Assembly: GCA_002897715.1 (NCBI GenBank)
Contig: BDUA01000011.1
Span: forward strand, 1 to 59,514
DNA from: a bacterium BMS3Abin01
GTDB lineage: Bacteria; Actinomycetota; Thermoleophilia; BMS3ABIN01
Length of the DNA: 59,514 nucleotides
Direction of reading: 5' to 3'
In this document: in pieces, positions 33,425 to 41,498 of the stretch
Numbering within the stretch: the first letter of the stretch is position 1
How the letters are laid out: every line of letters begins with the position of its first letter
Made by a program: the position numbers and the translations under genes
Notes under the pieces: model-generated
Database searches by the model: none
What the model was told of the DNA's origin: nothing
What the model saw: only the letters and a program-made list of their open reading frames with translations

Positions 33425-34627
33425 ATGAAACGGCTCGGACTCCTTTACCTGGCAGCACAGAACCTCAGACGCAAACCCTTCAGAAGCTTTGTGACCATTG
33501 CCATCGTGGCGATCGCCGCCGGCACCCTGTTCTCGGCCACACTGCTGATCAGTAGTGTCAACCGCAGCCTCGAGGTCGGCATGGAACGGCTGGGCGCCGA
33601 TATCCTGGTGGTGCCGGAGGGTTCACAGGAATCCGGCGAGGCGGCCCTGATTACCGGAGTCCCCACCAGCTTTTACATGGAACGGTCGGTGGCCGATCAG
33701 GTTGCCGCAGTACAGGGGGTGGACCAGGTCTCTCCCCAGCTGTTCATCGAATCCCTTATCTCCTCCGCCTGTTGCACGGGCCACGTGCAACTGGTGGGTT
33801 ATGACCCGGATACGGACTTCGTTATAACGCCCTGGCTCGAGCAGAACGTCGACAAGCCTCTGGATCGTGATGATGTGGTCATCGGCTCGCTGATACTCGC
33901 CAATAAGGGTGAGACGGTGAAGTTCTACGGGCATGACTTCAATGTAGTAGGCATACTGGACGCCACCGGCATGGGCGCCGACGAGAGCGTGTTCATGACC
34001 CTGGATGCCGCCTACGCCATGGCGGACGAGTCGGCCCAAGACGCGGCCACGGCCCTTGAGCTGCAGCCCGGCCAGATCTCGTCGGTGCTGGTAAGGGTAG
34101 CGCCGGGGACCACCATCGAGCAGGTGGCGCAACGCATCAAGACCAGCGTACCGGGCACCCTGGCCATTACCGCCAACGAACTGAGCCGTTCAGTTACCGA
34201 CCGGCTCTCGGGTTTCCTCAAAGGCTTTATCGTGCTCGATATCATCGTCTGGATTATGGCCCTGCTTACCATCGCCGCCATCTTTTCCATGATCGTCAAT
34301 GAACGCCAGCGGGAGATCGGCCTGTTGAGAGCCATGGGCGGCAAACGTGGGTATATCTTCCGCCTGATGACTACCGAAGCGATACTGCTTACCGCCGCCG
34401 GCGGCCTGACAGGCGTCCTCCTCGGCGGCGCGGGAATGTTCATCTTCCGCGCAGTGATCACCGCCAGCCTGGGTATCCCCTACCTCTGGCCACCACTGTG
34501 GTTCTTCGCGTTACTGGTACTGGGCACACTGTTTCTCTCAGTGGTAAGCGGCGTGGTGGCGTCCCTTTATCCGGCGATAAGCTCCAGTCGCCTCGAACCC
34601 TATGCCGCCATACGAAAGGGAGAGTGA
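33425..34627 (+). CDS. ABC transporter permease, FtsX/MacB-LolC type
   Basis: 400 residues. One N-terminal membrane helix (about 20-42), a large extracytoplasmic MacB_PCD-like domain (about 45-265), then three C-terminal helices with the FtsX core (ERQREIGLLRAMGGKRGYIFRLM). The external domain has an unusual adjacent Cys pair (SACCTG). Family members act as mechanotransmission exporters for peptides, antibiotics or lipoproteins rather than as channels. The ATPase gene follows 10 bp downstream. Confidence 0.9.
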   Translation: MKRLGLLYLAAQNLRRKPFRSFVTIAIVAIAAGTLFSATLLISSVNRSLEVGMERLGADILVVPEGSQESGEAALITGVPTSFYMERSVADQVAAVQGVDQVSPQLFIESLISSACCTGHVQLVGYDPDTDFVITPWLEQNVDKPLDRDDVVIGSLILANKGETVKFYGHDFNVVGILDATGMGADESVFMTLDAAYAMADESAQDAATALELQPGQISSVLVRVAPGTTIEQVAQRIKTSVPGTLAITANELSRSVTDRLSGFLKGFIVLDIIVWIMALLTIAAIFSMIVNERQREIGLLRAMGGKRGYIFRLMTTEAILLTAAGGLTGVLLGGAGMFIFRAVITASLGIPYLWPPLWFFALLVLGTLFLSVVSGVVASLYPAISSSRLEPYAAIRKGE

Positions 34628-35653: not shown

Positions 35654-35746
35654 CCTAAATAAAACCACCCGGCGCTGATCCCTCCCGGATACCGAGGTGC
35701 GGACAATATTATCAACGCTAATTATGACGTCCCGGCTTGGTCAGAG

Positions 35747-35762
35747 TGTAGCATATGGTACA
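35747..35762. promoter_or_regulatory. Candidate activator (enhancer) site
   Basis: TGTAGCATATGGTACA, a 16-bp inverted repeat broken only by a G-G pair, about 160 bp upstream of the -24 element. This is a typical distance for NtrC-type enhancers. A weaker AGT-N10-ACT palindrome sits at 35809-35824. Confidence 0.35.
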
Positions 35763-35919
35763 TCAAGAGTAGGATACGGCTCAATGACAGCGACCCACCA
35801 TTGCCCTCAGTGGTATATATTACTCAGCTTAAACCGTCATTTCCCCTGATTGCAGGCTTCATTCAGGACAAAGGGCCTACAACCCGTATCATTCAACCTT
35901 TTTTAGCTTTTTCCCGAAC

Positions 35920-35936
35920 TTGGCAAGTTCTTTGCT
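35920..35936 (+). promoter_or_regulatory. Sigma-54 (-24/-12) promoter
   Basis: TTGGCAAGTTCTTTGCT. GG and GC are separated by exactly 10 nt, and only one base (A for C after TTGGCA) departs from the TTGGCACG-N4-TTGCT consensus. Transcription should start near 35948, giving a ~148-nt leader before the PqqD-like gene. Confidence 0.7.
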
Positions 35937-35992
35937 GTATATATATATGAAAAGCCTTGATCCCATACTAAAACCCTCTTTCTAACGGTTTG

Positions 35993-36048
35993 GGAAAGCT
36001 GGCTTTCCACTTTTCCGGGGCCTGCCTGTGACGGCAGGCGGGCCCCCG
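35993..36048 (+). promoter_or_regulatory. Two-hairpin leader upstream of the PqqD-like gene
   Basis: Hairpin 1: GGAAAG-CTGG-CTTTCC (35993-36008). Hairpin 2: GGGGCCTGCC pairing with GGCAGGC and GCCCC across TGTGAC, with a small bulge (36016-36048). A Shine-Dalgarno (AAAGGAG) follows about 30 nt later. It does not match any riboswitch class I know; a role in mRNA stability or attenuation is possible. Confidence 0.4.
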
Positions 36049-36095
36049 AAACAACCGCGGGGGCAACGGAACAGCCGCAAAGGAGAGAGTGCGTA

Positions 36096-36359
36096 ATGGA
36101 ATTAAGCGAGGAAACTGCTACCGATTTGTCCGGCAGCGGGCAGATGACCAGTGAAGTACACGACCTCATCATGCATAGCGCCATTGCGGAAAAGGTTTGG
36201 GAGTTGCTGGACCACACGCTTACACTGCCCGATATCGCCGCTGTGATCTCGTCCGAGTTCGGGCTTCCACGTGAACGCGCCCTGTCCGACACCCGGGAAC
36301 TCGTTGATATCTTCAGCAGGGCGGACTTCGTAACCGTCTTGCGCGCACCGCAACACTAG
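36096..36359 (+). CDS. PqqD-like peptide-binding protein (RiPP recognition element)
   Basis: 87 residues with the winged-helix PqqD pattern: AEKVWELLDHTLTLPDIAAVISSEFGLPRERALSDTRELVDIF, matching the family theme of a W-E-L-L-D turn, an I-A-x-x-I helix and a final D-T-x-E-L-V/D-I-F helix. PqqD-type domains bind leader peptides of ribosomally made, modified peptides and hand them to maturation enzymes. A Shine-Dalgarno AAAGGAG is 10 nt upstream. It is driven by the sigma-54 promoter at 35.92 kb. No radical-SAM, cyclase or protease gene adjoins it, which is odd. A 44-residue ORF with a lasso-type leader lies 4 kb downstream. Confidence 0.75.
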   Translation: MELSEETATDLSGSGQMTSEVHDLIMHSAIAEKVWELLDHTLTLPDIAAVISSEFGLPRERALSDTRELVDIFSRADFVTVLRAPQH

Positions 36360-36391
36360 AACCACAATTTTTTTCCCACAGCGGTTAATCA

Positions 36392-37420
36392 CTACCGCTT
36401 GCCGGCCGCGGCGCTGGCTACCCATCGCCTGACTGTTTCCATATCGGATCCCAGCCGGCCTGCTATCTCATTGCAATCCATACCCTTTTCGCTGAGCTCC
36501 CTGGCGCGTGCCTGCCGGTCTCGGTATGCCTTGCTGCGACAGGCGTTGGAACAGAAATAGCGGTTCGTGCGAGCCGTGTAATGATCGATTTCAAACCAGG
36601 TATCACACTGCCGGCAGCGGCGGTAATCCTTCTCCTGTGTTATGGACTGGGAGAGTTGAAGCCAGAGGGCACCAATCAGGTTGTTGGGTACGAAATAGAG
36701 GCTCCAGCCGTTCAGGTGCCGGTCATCCCACAGTATCCTGGGAGAGATGCGCCTCTCCAGGCACCGGTTGGCGATGGCCTGCACCGCCAGCAAGGCGGTC
36801 CCGGCCAGGTTGCCCGCCCGGTACATATTCAGGCTCTCCGGATGGCTGCGATACCATCTTAGCTCACCCGGATCCACTTTTGGCAGCAGCCGCGAGGCGA
36901 CGCCATTGGCGGAGATCTCTCCCGCAGCCATGTCTGCTTCCACCCACCGCATCAGCGGTGAAAGAAATGCGTCCAGTCCCCTGCCGTCCTCATCCTGGAC
37001 CATATCCCATATCCGTAAGGCTTTACGCATGGCGCGTATCTCATTCCGCCATGACTCCAGGGGCTCCATCCGCAGGTAAACAGGAGAACTGCCCGCGTGT
37101 GCCGTCTCACGCCCGAACCCCATCAGCCCGTACTCATCGGCAAAACCGATGATGTCTTCAGGCTCCATGCCGGTCTCAGCGAATGCCCGAAACAGACATT
37201 TTTGCTCAAGAAGCGGGTTATACTGCTTCATGTCATAGGAGCCGGGGCCCTCGGAGAGCTTGGCGGCGATCAGTCTCCCCGGCGCAGACCCCTCACCGCG
37301 GTTTCCGCTGTTCCCATTGTCGTCGATGCCCCCTGATGAATCTCCGGCCAACGCCGCATCAACCAGCGTGTAGCCGGCCTTATTCACAAACCAAATAAAG
37401 TCAAATATCTCTCCTGGCAC
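36392..37420 (-). CDS. Putative zinc-finger/HTH DNA-binding protein (CGNR-like)
   Basis: 342 residues from GTG at 37420. That start has a GGAGGGG Shine-Dalgarno 6 nt upstream, whereas the ATG at 37435 contains this motif and has no ribosome site of its own. The N-terminal ~250 residues are unrecognised. The C-terminus has a treble-clef zinc motif (CRQCDTWFEIDHY ... RYFCSNACRSKAYRDRQ) as in CGNR-type proteins, followed by an HTH-like helix pair (MDCNEIAGRLGSDMETVRRWV). Probably a transcription factor. It is convergent with the PqqD-like gene (32 bp between stops) and divergent from the beta-propeller gene, so it may control the local genes. Confidence 0.65.
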   Translation of the reverse strand: MPGEIFDFIWFVNKAGYTLVDAALAGDSSGGIDDNGNSGNRGEGSAPGRLIAAKLSEGPGSYDMKQYNPLLEQKCLFRAFAETGMEPEDIIGFADEYGLMGFGRETAHAGSSPVYLRMEPLESWRNEIRAMRKALRIWDMVQDEDGRGLDAFLSPLMRWVEADMAAGEISANGVASRLLPKVDPGELRWYRSHPESLNMYRAGNLAGTALLAVQAIANRCLERRISPRILWDDRHLNGWSLYFVPNNLIGALWLQLSQSITQEKDYRRCRQCDTWFEIDHYTARTNRYFCSNACRSKAYRDRQARARELSEKGMDCNEIAGRLGSDMETVRRWVASAAAGKR

Positions 37421-37454
37421 AAAAAACCCCTCCATATTCGATATCGTTACGGGA

Positions 37455-37483
37455 ATTATATCGGAATACGTATTGAATGTCCA
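37455..37483 (-). promoter_or_regulatory. Promoter of the zinc-finger protein gene
   Basis: On the minus strand: TGGACA (37478-37483), 17-bp spacer, TATAAT (37455-37460). A second candidate, AAGACA-N17-TATAAT, spans 37501-37529. Initiation from the first near 37448 leaves room for the Shine-Dalgarno only if the GTG at 37420 is the start. Confidence 0.6.
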
Positions 37484-37529
37484 TCGAAGTAGCGGATACA
37501 ATTATAATCGGTTAACTTGCATTTGTCTT

Positions 37530-37794
37530 CACAGGCAGGGGATAGGGGAATTGACAGGGGAAAGCCGGTCCTGACTTAGGAATCACCCGGTTTTTGCGAT
37601 ATAAACAGGGTGTTCTGCTTTTAATAGTCAGCTTCCTCCACCGGCAACGTAATAAGCCTCCATTTCTTCTCTCGAACCTCTCCCCCCACTCTAGCGAAGA
37701 CGCATTATCAAATTACGGGAAACGGGAGGTGGTGGCACTAACGCAGGGTGCAAGTCTAACCCTTAAGATACATTACTATTAGGAGGATGAAGGG
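37530..37794. other. Non-coding region upstream of the beta-propeller gene
   Basis: No supported gene. A perfect TTGACA is at 37551-37556 but lacks a matching -10 at normal spacing. A strong Shine-Dalgarno (AGGAGG) lies 8 nt before the ATG at 37795. Sigma-54 elements with correct spacing were looked for and not found. Confidence 0.4.
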
Positions 37795-40251
37795 ATGAAA
37801 GTTGCATTGAGCAACACTAAATGGCAACTGCTGCTACTGGCAACGCCGCTGGTACTGATCCTGGCGATAGCTATCGCCACCAGCGGCATGTCAGGCGCAG
37901 CTGATGCCGCGTACGGCGGTTACGGTTGCGGCGCCTATACGCCCTGCGACCAGGCTCCGCCCGCCTCTTACGGCCTCGGCAACGAGTTGCTGTATGTGGC
38001 CAACGGTGACGCCAGCGACGTACTGGTGATCGATGCCAATACCATGCGCAAGGTGGACACCATACCCGTGCCCGATGCCGACCCGGGCGGAGATGCCTGG
38101 GAGATCCACGGCATGATCCCGTCCCCTGACAGGAGCTCCATGTTCGCCATAGGCGCCCTGTCCGGAACGGCGGCCGACGTTACCATGTACGAGATCGATA
38201 CGGCCACCAAGAACGTAGTGCGCACTATCGGCCCCATGTACAGCTCCAACGTCGGTTATTGCGGCTTCGAGTACGACCGCAACGACGAGAACTCCAACCT
38301 GGTCTACGCCACCAACATGGGGACACCGTTACTCGGCCCCACCGGCAGCGTGGGCGGTTGGCAGGAAGTGGATATCTCCACCGGCACCGTGGGCAGGTTC
38401 ATACCTACGGACGCCAACGGCAACGGCGAGTCCAGCACCTGTGGCGTCGCCTGGGATGCCAGCGGCACTCACGGCTACGCCGGACTGATGTTCGACGCCC
38501 CGTCATCGGAGACCGAGATGGACTGGCCGGGCGCTACCACGATGAATTACAACGCCTCGTCCGGTACATCGGGCATCTCCTACCACCAGAGCACGGTGGA
38601 CAAGGAACGCGGCCTGCTGTTCCAGTCGGGCGGCAACGGTCACGTCCTTGATGTCTTCGACATCAGCGGCGGCAATCCGGTGCTGATCGGCACCATCGAC
38701 CTGGCGGCGCTTACCGGCGTCCCCTCGGCCGAACCTCATGGCCCGGAGATCTCCGCGGCCAACAGCAACGTCCTGTACGTCAATACGCGCCAGGTACCCG
38801 ATCCCAACCCATCGGGCGGTACAGTGCTGGCTATTGACGTCAGCGATATCAACGCTCCTGTACTGATCGGCGGCTACAGCGGCACCAATAAATCATCTTG
38901 CGGTGTCTTCGCCGACGCGGACAAGAGCCTGTACTACAGTCACGCAGATCCCAGCGGTACCGGTAGCGAGACCCTGCTGGTAGCTAACGGCAGCGACAGC
39001 GATGTGCTGGTAGCTGACGTCGCTTCCATGTCCTGGGTGGACAGCATCAATATCCCGGACGCCGACCCGGCCGGAAACGCCTGGGAGATACACGGCATGA
39101 TCCCGTCTCCGGACAGGACATCCGTCTACGCCGTAGGCGCCCTGTCCGGCACCTCGGCTGACGTGACCATGTATCAGGTCAACTCGGCCAACGACTCTGT
39201 CGTCGGCACTATCGGACCCATGTACGGCTCCAACGTCGGTTACTGCGGCATCGAGTACGACCGCAACGACGAGAGCTCCAACCTGGTCTACGCCACCAAC
39301 ATGGGGACGCCGTTACTCGGCCCCACCGACAGCGTGGGCGGTTGGCAGGAAGTGGATATCTCCTCCGGCACCGTGGGCAGGTTCATCAACACCGATGCCA
39401 ACGGCAACGGCGAATCCAGCACCTGTGGTGTCGCCTGGGATGCCAGCGGCACTCACGGCTACGCCGGACTGATGTTCGACGCCCCATCATCGGAGACCGA
39501 GATGGACTGGCCGGGCGCTACCACGATGAACTACAACGCCTCGTCCGGCACTCCGGGCATCTCCTACCACCAGAACACGGTGGCCAAGGAACGCGGCCTG
39601 CTGTTCCAGTCCGGTGGTACCGGTGGAGTCCTTGATGTCTTCGACATCAGCGGCGGCAACCCGGTGCTGATCGGCACCATCGACCTCGTCGCTCTCACCG
39701 GTGCGCCTTCTACCGAGCCTCATGGTCCGGAGATCTCGTCCATCGACGAGAACATCCTGTACGTCAATGTTCGCCAGGTACCCAGCCCCAACCCCTCCGG
39801 GGGATCACTGCTGGTTATCGACGTCAGCGACGTTACAGCTCCGGTGCTGCTTGGGACGATACAGGGCACCAACGAATCGTCCTGCGGCGTCTTCGCCATG
39901 AGCACAGCTTCATGGAACCCCGGCCAGCCCGCCCTGAGTCTCACCAGGGGCACGGTCTACTGGGCCTCCGTGGCTGACTACAACAACCGCATCCTGTCCG
40001 TCGACTACAGCATCGGCAACGCCGGACCGGACGCCAAGGACGTCACCATCGCCGGCACGGTCAACACCGGCGGCGTGACCTCGGTGAACACGCCCAGCCT
40101 GGCCGGCGACATCGCCGGCGGCGGCAGCGGCGCCTACATCGTCGAGTACTATGTGCCCGTCGGCGTAGTGGCGTTCAGCACCACCGTATACGCAACCGCT
40201 CAGAGCGGCGCCACCATCTACGACTACCCCGGTCCGTACCCCGGACCTTAA
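37795..40251 (+). CDS. Secreted protein with tandemly duplicated beta-propeller
   Basis: 818 residues. Signal peptide at about 1-40 (LLLLATPLVLILAIAIATSG), then a Gly/Tyr/Cys-rich segment. Residues ~64-380 and ~393-705 are two close copies of a YncE/LVIVD-like beta-propeller, with repeated strands such as LVIDANTMRKVDTI, GVLDVFDISGGNPVLIG and VLAIDVSDINAPVLIGG. Each copy has three conserved Cys (GYCG, STCGVAWD, SSCGVF). The C-terminal ~110 residues resemble a CARDB/DUF11-type beta-sandwich and end Pro-Gly-rich. Ligand unknown; it resembles LVIVD-repeat and selenium-binding-like propellers only in general form. A 44-codon ORF with a strong ribosome site follows 47 bp downstream. Confidence 0.8.
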   Translation: MKVALSNTKWQLLLLATPLVLILAIAIATSGMSGAADAAYGGYGCGAYTPCDQAPPASYGLGNELLYVANGDASDVLVIDANTMRKVDTIPVPDADPGGDAWEIHGMIPSPDRSSMFAIGALSGTAADVTMYEIDTATKNVVRTIGPMYSSNVGYCGFEYDRNDENSNLVYATNMGTPLLGPTGSVGGWQEVDISTGTVGRFIPTDANGNGESSTCGVAWDASGTHGYAGLMFDAPSSETEMDWPGATTMNYNASSGTSGISYHQSTVDKERGLLFQSGGNGHVLDVFDISGGNPVLIGTIDLAALTGVPSAEPHGPEISAANSNVLYVNTRQVPDPNPSGGTVLAIDVSDINAPVLIGGYSGTNKSSCGVFADADKSLYYSHADPSGTGSETLLVANGSDSDVLVADVASMSWVDSINIPDADPAGNAWEIHGMIPSPDRTSVYAVGALSGTSADVTMYQVNSANDSVVGTIGPMYGSNVGYCGIEYDRNDESSNLVYATNMGTPLLGPTDSVGGWQEVDISSGTVGRFINTDANGNGESSTCGVAWDASGTHGYAGLMFDAPSSETEMDWPGATTMNYNASSGTPGISYHQNTVAKERGLLFQSGGTGGVLDVFDISGGNPVLIGTIDLVALTGAPSTEPHGPEISSIDENILYVNVRQVPSPNPSGGSLLVIDVSDVTAPVLLGTIQGTNESSCGVFAMSTASWNPGQPALSLTRGTVYWASVADYNNRILSVDYSIGNAGPDAKDVTIAGTVNTGGVTSVNTPSLAGDIAGGGSGAYIVEYYVPVGVVAFSTTVYATAQSGATIYDYPGPYPGP
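37984..39903 (+). repeat. ~990-bp direct duplication inside the propeller gene
   Basis: Copy 1 about 37984-38939, copy 2 about 38974-39903. Several stretches, for example those encoding the GTHGYAGLMFDAPSSETEMD segment, are nearly identical in DNA, including synonymous sites. The duplication is therefore recent or kept uniform by conversion. Confidence 0.85.
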
Positions 40252-40298
40252 GGGCGAGTCGGAGATAACGCGGCGAACTGACGTGAAAGGAGAACCAG

Positions 40299-40433
40299 AT
40301 GGCCTCTAAACAGAGTGACCACCGGGAGCCTTACGCCAAGCCTGAGCTGGTGAAGCACGATAACTTGAAGGATGTAACCTTCGAGTGCCCCAACTGGCAG
40401 TGCAGCGTAACGGTTCCAGCGCCGCCGGCCTAG
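40299..40433 (+). CDS. Candidate RiPP precursor peptide with lasso-type leader
   Basis: 44 residues, ATG with an AAAGGAG Shine-Dalgarno 6 nt upstream, stop TAG, followed by a strong terminator. Residues 12-27 (YAKPELVKHDNLKDVT) fit the Y-x-x-P-x-L ... H-x-N-L-x-x-x-T leader theme that PqqD-like B1 proteins bind in lasso peptide systems. The presumed core is FECPNWQCSVTVPAPPA, with two Cys four residues apart and a Pro-rich end. It has no Gly/Ser/Cys at the expected lasso ring start and no acid at core position 7-9, so a lasso fold is unlikely. A Cys-based modification or disulfide loop is more plausible. Probably cotranscribed with the propeller gene. Confidence 0.65.
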   Translation: MASKQSDHREPYAKPELVKHDNLKDVTFECPNWQCSVTVPAPPA

Positions 40434-40466
40434 ACACAGCCTGCGGCAAGCGGTAAGGCTAACAGC

Positions 40467-40498
40467 CGGAGGGCGGCCCCCACGGGGGCCGCCCTCCG
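40467..40498 (+). terminator. Strong GC-rich terminator hairpin after the precursor gene
   Basis: Stem of 13-14 bp (GGAGGGCGGCCCC pairing with GGGGCCGCCCTCC) with a 4-nt loop, 34 bp after the precursor stop. The following GTCATTTACGG is only weakly U-rich, so termination may need help. Confidence 0.65.
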
Positions 40499-40713
40499 TC
40501 ATTTACGGTCGTTCAGACCATATCGCCACCATTCAAAACCGCTGTGACATATAGTAAAAAAGCTCCCCCGCCCCCTGAATAAAGAAAATTGACCCGTATG
40601 CCGATAACGCTAACGAAGGAAAGACAGCATGGACAAATCGGGCCAGTCCAGGGGGACCTTTTAGGGTGAGACGATGAGTCTCGGAAGGCTATGAAATCTA
40701 TTCGAACTGCTGA
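40499..40713. other. Intergenic region
   Basis: About 215 bp with no supported gene. It contains TTGACC near 40600 and a GAGAC-5nt-GTCTC hairpin near 40672-40686. The open frame of the next gene begins right after a stop codon at 40711-40713. Confidence 0.35.
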
Positions 40714-41157
40714 TTGTCTACAAAAAACAAAAAACAGGTTAACGAATATTTCATACAGAGAGTCGTCCTCTCACAAGGTCAGGTTATAGATCTGGTCTGC
40801 TTCGATGAAGATGAATGCGTCGAAAGCATAATTGAGGAAATCATGACTGAACTACAGAAGAAAAAGACAGAAATCCAGACCTGTCCCCTCTGTAAGTCAG
40901 AGCTGGTCTACCCCGTTGAACGGTGCCAGGTCAACGATATGGAGTGGAAAGTACTGTTGCTCTGTCCCAACTGTTCATGCAAGCGGGAAATGGTCGTCGA
41001 GCGCGAGACCGTTCGCGAACTTCTGAAGAGCGCCAGGGTGGGCCGTGAGTCCCTGATGAGAGAACTGGACAAAATGCAGAAGAGAAACATGGAAGAGGAA
41101 GTTGACAAGTTCATCTGCGCTCTCAACAAGGACCATATCCTTCCCATTGATTTCTAG
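40714..41157 (+). CDS. Small zinc-ribbon protein, hypothetical
   Basis: 147 residues from TTG. An in-frame stop immediately precedes this codon and there is no clear Shine-Dalgarno, so the start is uncertain; an internal ATG (MTELQKKKTEIQTC) is the alternative. Two CxxC knuckles, TCPLCKSEL and LLCPNCSCKRE about 30 residues apart, form a zinc ribbon. A Glu/Lys-rich helical tail with FICALNKDHILPIDF ends the protein. Family not recognised. It lies downstream of the terminator following the precursor peptide gene and so has its own promoter. Confidence 0.5.
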   Translation: MSTKNKKQVNEYFIQRVVLSQGQVIDLVCFDEDECVESIIEEIMTELQKKKTEIQTCPLCKSELVYPVERCQVNDMEWKVLLLCPNCSCKREMVVERETVRELLKSARVGRESLMRELDKMQKRNMEEEVDKFICALNKDHILPIDF

Positions 41158-41230
41158 ACCTTCTTAACCGCACCCCGGCGACTGGGCAAATCGGGGAACA
41201 GGCAAAACGGGGGAGGCATCATCGTTTACT

Positions 41231-41485
41231 GTGAGCAAAAACATGATGCCGGATATTCCAGATACACGAAGCAAGCCGGGCTGCGAATGTCCCGTAGAGC
41301 AGCCCGCACCCCAGATGTGCGTCAATTGCATCGAGTCCAGCGGTGGCGCCCTCAGCAACATTCAGAGAGTGATGGCAGGCCCCAACGGAGTCGTAGTCGG
41401 GGTGAAGCTGCGTAGCGCCGCGGAAGTGCAGGGCTGGATGGAATCACTCGATACCGGCAGATGCCCCTGCCTGTCGTTCACCTGA
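41231..41485 (+). CDS. Small Cys-rich hypothetical protein
   Basis: 84 residues from GTG. Cysteines cluster as CEC and CVNC in the first third and CPC near the end. The middle (IQRVMAGPNGVVVGVKLRSAAEVQGWMESL) looks like a small alpha/beta unit. The nearest purine-rich ribosome site (GGGGGAGG) is about 14 nt upstream, which is long. It converges on rho, with 13 bp between stops. No signal peptide. It might bind metal, or be another small secreted or modified peptide, but nothing proves it is translated. Confidence 0.45.
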   Translation: MSKNMMPDIPDTRSKPGCECPVEQPAPQMCVNCIESSGGALSNIQRVMAGPNGVVVGVKLRSAAEVQGWMESLDTGRCPCLSFT

Positions 41486-41498
41486 GCGAAAGACCCCC

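Follow-up and report, generated by a model that had tools for sequence, protein, structure and literature searches.

A two-gene unit with a lasso-type leader peptide

Positions 35700 to 41490 of contig BDUA01000011.1 from bacterium BMS3Abin01 (GTDB lineage Bacteria; Actinomycetota; Thermoleophilia; BMS3ABIN01; assembly GCA_002897715.1) hold a unit of two co-directional genes, in which a secreted doubled beta-propeller is followed by a 44-residue peptide with a lasso-type leader. The whole contig of 59,514 nucleotides is termed the window here and provides the numbering, while the genome holding it is termed the home genome. The unit is read as one member of a lineage-specific system, in which a peptide of the ribosomally synthesized and post-translationally modified (RiPP) type would serve as a docking strand for surface proteins that share the C-terminal domain (CTD) of the propeller, a reading with about an even chance of being correct (roughly 0.5). 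The gene module and its co-occurrence across genomes are direct observations, with the docking predicted by structure models.

All open reading frames (ORFs) of the region are present where the initial annotation had placed them. The larger gene of the unit (37795..40251, plus strand) encodes 818 residues, with the product looking secreted and internally doubled as had been claimed, matching TIGR02276 at E 1e-5 yet under the cut-off. Overlooked at that time was its CTD (39895..40248, plus strand), an Ig-like domain ending ...YDYPGPYPGP that has no Pfam family and that, from structure models of relatives, is the predicted docking domain for the peptide core; this domain is the key to the locus. 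The peptide gene (40299..40433, plus strand) starts 47 bp past the propeller stop with its own Shine-Dalgarno sequence AAAGGAG (40286..40292, plus strand) before the ATG. The leader MASKQSDHREPYAKPELVKHDNLKDVTF (40299..40382, plus strand) carries Y(-17), P(-14), L(-12) and T(-2) in lasso spacing (rule from PMC10368454), and the predicted core ECPNWQCSVTVPAPPA (40383..40430, plus strand) has C7 and S8 invariant in the family alignment, with residues Q6-T10 forming the docking strand predicted by the models.

The peptide family

In published lasso leaders YxxPxL spans -17 to -12, and position -2 is as a rule Thr (PMC10368454). The pattern YxxPx[LIVA]x9T is exact in 86/89 intact precursors and, judged by this spacing, the leader is a genuine RiPP leader of the lasso type. 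The predicted core is almost constant, reading E1-C2-x-x-W5-[QS]6-C7-S8-V9-x-V11-P12-x-x-P15, with C7 and S8 found in 89/89, V11 and P12 in 88/89 and C2 and W5 in 87/89 precursors; the invariant Ser8 is a candidate phosphorylation site. Asp or Glu occurs at core positions 7-9 in 0/89 precursors, which by the known rule makes a lasso macrolactam impossible. When NCBIfam was run on 21 precursors, one or two matched lasso-leader models, weakly. One variant precursor in the home genome (L031:15112-15258, contig C55) has the same leader type and a different core with a Gly/His-rich tail, ...DMTFSSPELMCSCGMGGGHGGHGHHGDSSSE.

Codon changes relative to the window copy number 1076, 507 and 319 at positions 3, 1 and 2 respectively, and a Shine-Dalgarno-like motif precedes 82/87 peptide genes; the favoured third-position changes together with these motifs indicate that the peptide ORFs are genes. 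The lasso-leader peptide that had been annotated in the window has held up, with eight copies in the home genome and 4-12 copies in each of the 19/19 genomes of its taxonomic family. The peptide was found in 0/41 genomes representing seven further families of the class, and in a class-wide sample in 19/399 genomes, all in the same family. A pattern scan of 84,980 species gave 76 loci, nearly all in uncultured Thermoleophilia, Gaiellales or Actinomycetes assemblies, several of which are deep-subsurface by name (SURF, DeMMO). At one odd locus (L152:10004-10105), in an assembly named 'bacterium' (DBS2-1.bin143), a precursor-like ORF (..EPYTKPELTKDENLKDITFDDCTWQCSSPVPGSP) lies between dnaK and dnaJ with no CTD or kinase match nearby, which may reflect horizontal spread or misbinning.

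The C-terminal domain family and its pairing with the peptide

The CTD, which is named here as a new C-terminal domain family, comprises the last ~110-115 residues of the propeller and recurs in 18 places of the home genome, mostly in secreted proteins. A CTD profile found 11-39 occurrences per genome in exactly the 19 genomes of the family and none in the 41 genomes outside it. No Pfam family covers the domain and its members match none consistently, a comparison with PDB sequences gave no match up to E 1, and the dual Trp-x-Leu (WxL) motif is absent from the CTD alignment. The N-terminal parts that precede it are unrelated to one another and include the propeller, rhodanese-like, ethylbenzene-dehydrogenase-like haem, multihaem cytochrome, beta-helix, Sortilin/BNR-type and GH26-like proteins, with the peptide gene found behind several of these partner types but not behind the GH26-like one.

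Pairing was counted for the 83 peptide genes with enough upstream sequence, and 59 of these follow a same-strand CTD gene at a distance of 5-109 bp. When positions were drawn at random within these loci, the mean was 0.44 and the maximum 4 (2000 trials), and no peptide gene had an opposite-strand CTD gene at 5-109 bp. Among propeller-type CTD proteins the peptide lies directly downstream in 18/18, a genetic tie to the propeller that bears out this part of the initial reading, while for multihaem cytochromes it is downstream in 2/2, for EB_dh proteins in 3/3 and in the largest mixed CTD cluster in 22/35, where several contigs end early. One multihaem cytochrome with a CTD and its peptide gene (L030:7987-9145) lies directly upstream of a molybdopterin-oxidoreductase-like operon in which a twin-arginine translocation (Tat) signal, a ferredoxin-like subunit and a chaperone-like gene were read from the sequence.

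Predicted docking of the core

AlphaFold models were made of the CTD, linker and precursor read through the stop codon as one chain, which is feasible because the CTD stop and the peptide gene share frame in several loci; the summary of the best model was used. In the first model (L079, 80 sequences) the CTD had a predicted local distance difference test (pLDDT) score of ~97, the linker and leader mostly 50-75 and the core block 96, with QCSVT as the docked strand. The same strand was placed in the second model (L078, from the genus of the window), in which the alignment held CTD rows only and no peptide rows, with pLDDT of 90-97 for the CTD, 41-46 for linker and leader and 92 for the core. 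Leader and linker were undocked in both models, which provides an internal negative. Both models matched the adaptin-ear/GAE, ApaG and WxLIP (9i25) folds with Z of ~8-10.6 and root mean square deviations mostly of 2-4.5, with alignments that begin at the start of the CTD, include the docked strand and reach the end of complete domains, from which the CTD alone appears to be a sandwich lacking its final strand, which the core would provide. The models thus suggest that the core docks as a beta strand, replacing the missing last strand of the CTD.

The closest working parallel, by analogy, is the WxL/WxLIP system, in which a partner strand is predicted to complete the WxL beta-sandwich and a C-terminal domain is likewise common to large secreted proteins, with WxLIP also among the fold matches here (PMC10599100). 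No sequence relation to the CTD was found, and the strand there comes from a large membrane protein, whereas here it would come from a leader-bearing peptide. Chaperone-usher donor-strand complementation also completes an incomplete Ig-like fold with a strand from another chain; in contrast, the present system has no usher and no pilin, and its donor would be a RiPP-type peptide in what is presumably a single-membrane bacterium.

The kinase-B1-B2 operon, proposed to act in trans

The suggestion that a maturase might lie elsewhere proved well founded, with contig C14 of the home genome carrying an operon of an HprK-like kinase, a PqqD protein (B1, PF05402) and a B2 protease, followed by a DUF2079 membrane protein. 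This B2 scores 44.4 bits against NF033537 (cut-off 33), giving the B1 and B2 pair of lasso pathways, and its catalytic Cys and His are conserved, as is the Walker A motif of the kinase. The kinase-B1-B2 order recurs in relatives beside hemW-like, hrcA and dnaJ genes (flanks annotated from sequence, not by profile), with a methyltransferase in some of these operons. B2 was detected in 16/19 genomes of the family, with the three lacking a match including assemblies of 69% and 78% completeness, and above the cut-off in 3/41 genomes of other families.

No macrolactam cyclase was found next to the operon in the home genome or in relatives. That the product is a true lasso peptide closed by a cyclase acting from elsewhere in the genome is in keeping with the lasso-type leader and B1/B2 pair, and Asn-synthetase family genes do occur on contig C16; these were rejected as the cyclase, being two genes of ordinary AsnB appearance that lie in a glycan/B12-radical-SAM cluster far from B1/B2. 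With the acid absent from core positions 7-9 in every precursor and no cyclase near the B1-B2 operon in relatives, this explanation is very improbable. Phosphorylated lasso peptides (paeninodin; BsfA, PMC10368454) share with the present system YxxPxL at -17 to -12 and a set of B1 (PqqD), B2 and HprK-like kinase, with Thr at -2 here as in the paeninodin type and Ile in BsfA (PMC10368454). The present system differs in its many precursors scattered over each genome, in having an operon with no cyclase next to it and in lacking an acid at core positions 7-9, and on the last two counts a lasso ring is not expected.

A second HprK-like kinase is encoded on contig C47 of the home genome (893-1936, minus strand), with 63-96% identity in 14 relatives, such that two HprK-like kinases occur in 15/19 family genomes. 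In 14 of the 15 genomes having it, this second kinase lies close behind a propeller-type peptide gene. Between the two lies a lipoprotein with a Gly/Ser/Pro-rich linker that ends in GGWxxGGIxIxVPxxP or similar (11/11 loci). Among 3378 ORFs with 100 residues or more, 15 have [VI]x[VI]PxxP at the C terminus, of which 11 are these lipoproteins, three are peptides in extended ORFs and one looks spurious. By their sequences, peptide and lipoprotein share a C-terminal motif of alternating hydrophobic residues.

A discrete RiPP recognition element (RRE) and an HprK-like kinase without an adjacent cyclase are also the machinery of the linear polyphosphorylated peptides (LPP), in which a SipW-like signal peptidase removes the leader, a single cluster includes a transporter (MsbA-like exporter) and a nucleoside triphosphate (NTP) transferase, and the cores are variable (Popov et al., 2026, PMC13381572). 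The two systems share a lasso-like RRE-binding leader, the lack of a macrolactam cyclase and the expectation of a linear phosphorylated product, while B2, dispersed precursors, a constant core and pairing with CTD proteins set the present one apart. The operon here has B2 and DUF2079, and no genome-wide search was aimed at the SipW-like peptidase, MsbA-like exporter or NTP transferase of LPP. It could be argued from this machinery (PMC13381572), the invariant Ser8 and the paired kinases that the peptide belongs with the LPP kind as a secreted RiPP, linear and phosphorylated, which kinase-B1-B2 makes as a signal or antimicrobial, with CTD adjacency reflecting co-expression only and the docking an artefact of prediction. 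Such an origin is unlikely, though it deserves attention, as the core, unlike the variable cores of LPP, hardly changes between paralogues or between genera, the peptide is very tightly paired with one domain family and the lipoprotein has the same tail.

Conversely, the docking models need no modification of the core, and modification and cleavage are themselves inferred, from which it might be supposed that the peptide undergoes no RiPP chemistry and is just a small structural partner for the CTD, its leader resembling the lasso type by chance or as a relic. The YxxPxLx9T spacing is exact in all but three of the precursors even though the leader is disordered in both models, and these genomes also conserve B1 and B2 of the lasso type, making this supposition rather doubtful.

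A radical-SAM/SPASM protein, two PqqD proteins and an HprK-like protein lie in a row on contig C18 of the home genome (L034:8146-11003) with CTD genes on both sides, possibly representing a second RiPP-type pathway. As a candidate maturation set for the peptide this cluster was set aside; radical-SAM matches near standalone peptide copies were weak (26-31% identical).

Proposed mechanism

In the docking-strand reading each unit would yield a secreted protein, in which the common CTD follows an N-terminal part that varies, together with a lasso-leader peptide whose leader would be bound in trans by B1. The HprK-like kinase may phosphorylate Ser8 before cleavage. Among characterized systems BsfK phosphorylates Ser3 aided by BsfB1 (PMC10368454), as LppK also phosphorylates Ser3 (PMC13381572). 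B2 would then cut off the leader after T-F, with the linear core and its two cysteines exported by some route, and the C-terminal strand of the core (QCSVT-V-P-x-x-P) would dock in the CTD and complete its beta-sandwich like a donated strand. The effect of such a strand on CTD proteins at the cell surface would be to fold, cap, release or place them. In the lipoprotein encoded next to the second kinase the same strand would be tethered to the membrane, and the two carriers of the strand could then be rivals, or be used one after the other, in placing, capping or releasing the proteins. Taken in full, with one operon maturing the products of many dispersed genes into a linear peptide of constant sequence that may be phosphorylated, and this peptide completing, and perhaps controlling through phosphorylation or competition with the lipoprotein-tethered copy, the CTD of ~10-40 secreted proteins per genome, the scheme is tentative and has slightly less than an even chance of being right, its chemistry, export and purpose being deduced from the genes.

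Several points weigh against the docking-strand reading. The peptide product, leader cleavage and phosphorylation are deduced from co-occurring enzymes only, the kinase-B1-B2 operon could serve other precursors and no exporter for the peptide was found. Docking was seen in fused chains only, without CTD-alone, decoy or unrelated-peptide controls; AlphaFold is prone to adding strands at sheet edges, and sandwiches of this sort often give Z values in the middle range. The peptide gene and the CTD gene need not be paired in cis, since 24/83 peptide genes, standalone genes included, are not beside a CTD gene and ~14/19 CTD genes of the home genome have no adjacent peptide gene. As CTD genes outnumber peptide genes, the peptides must also act in trans if they serve all CTDs. 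Finally, all the genomes come from one family, so the co-occurrence amounts to one phylogenetic event.

A literature search, with preprint and subscription literature largely outside it, found no description of a peptide and CTD system. As a RiPP variant the system is new in combining a lasso leader, B1/B2 and kinase with no adjacent cyclase, a constant core and many dispersed genes. Known RiPPs act as antibiotics, signals, toxins and cofactors, and we know of no peptide of this kind whose job is to complete a protein domain as its missing strand. If correct, the docking-strand reading would extend RiPP roles to structural partners of surface proteins and offer a role for kinase-B1-B2 sets without a cyclase. 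For an uncultured Thermoleophilia family from deep rock and hot springs, it further points to a way in which proteins for respiration and sulfur handling may be kept extracellular.

The chromosomal site and neighbouring genes

The initial annotation had treated 35700-41490 as one accessory RiPP island, in which a local PqqD-like protein, a CGNR-like DNA-binding protein, two Cys-rich proteins and an FtsX/MacB exporter belonged with the propeller, perhaps as maturase, and the peptide. The genes do adjoin in the window, and beyond this the island is hardly credible, with only two of its genes forming a unit. The gene order of FtsX, P0008, P0005, P0006 and rho is also maintained here in other genera, where a different CTD protein with a peptide, or a peptide alone, lies between the backbone genes (L092, L113, L126, L129, L148), such that the supposed island is a conserved place on the chromosome whose content can be exchanged. 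The exporter is indeed present (33425-34627; PF12704, PF02687) and, like the two Cys-rich proteins, belongs to the conserved flank. For the propeller as maturase no support was found, it being one of many kinds of secreted protein that share the CTD. At the same site in L113 (3970-4533), L129 and L092 there are genes upstream of the CTD protein, the one in L113 encoding DUF4418 (PF14387).

The PqqD-like gene P0001 (36096-36359) does match PF05402 (E 9e-7, 29.5 bits, cut-off 23.4), aligning with profile positions 12-66 of 67 only, and has an orthologue with 87% identity in the same genus only, matches elsewhere being at most 42% identical over part of the length. Poorly matching and genus-restricted, it is not a conserved recognition protein, and as the protein recognising the leader it was dropped. 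P0002 (36392-37501, minus strand), the supposed CGNR-like protein, matches CGNR in neither Pfam nor NCBIfam, which returned only weak helix-turn-helix and treble-clef matches, and its orthologues are also confined to the genus.

No credible riboswitch or structured RNA was found around 33-43 kb or around standalone peptide copies. A perfect 14-bp inverted repeat, GGAGGGCGGCCCCC/GGGGGCCGCCCTCC, lies 35 bp past the peptide stop (40468..40497, plus strand) and probably marks the end of the propeller-peptide transcript, an assignment made from the repeat itself, which lacks a T-run and was not flagged by a terminator scan. A selenocysteine tRNA occurs in one of these Thermoleophilia assemblies (L117:6249-6340; Rfam RF01852, 70.7 bits).

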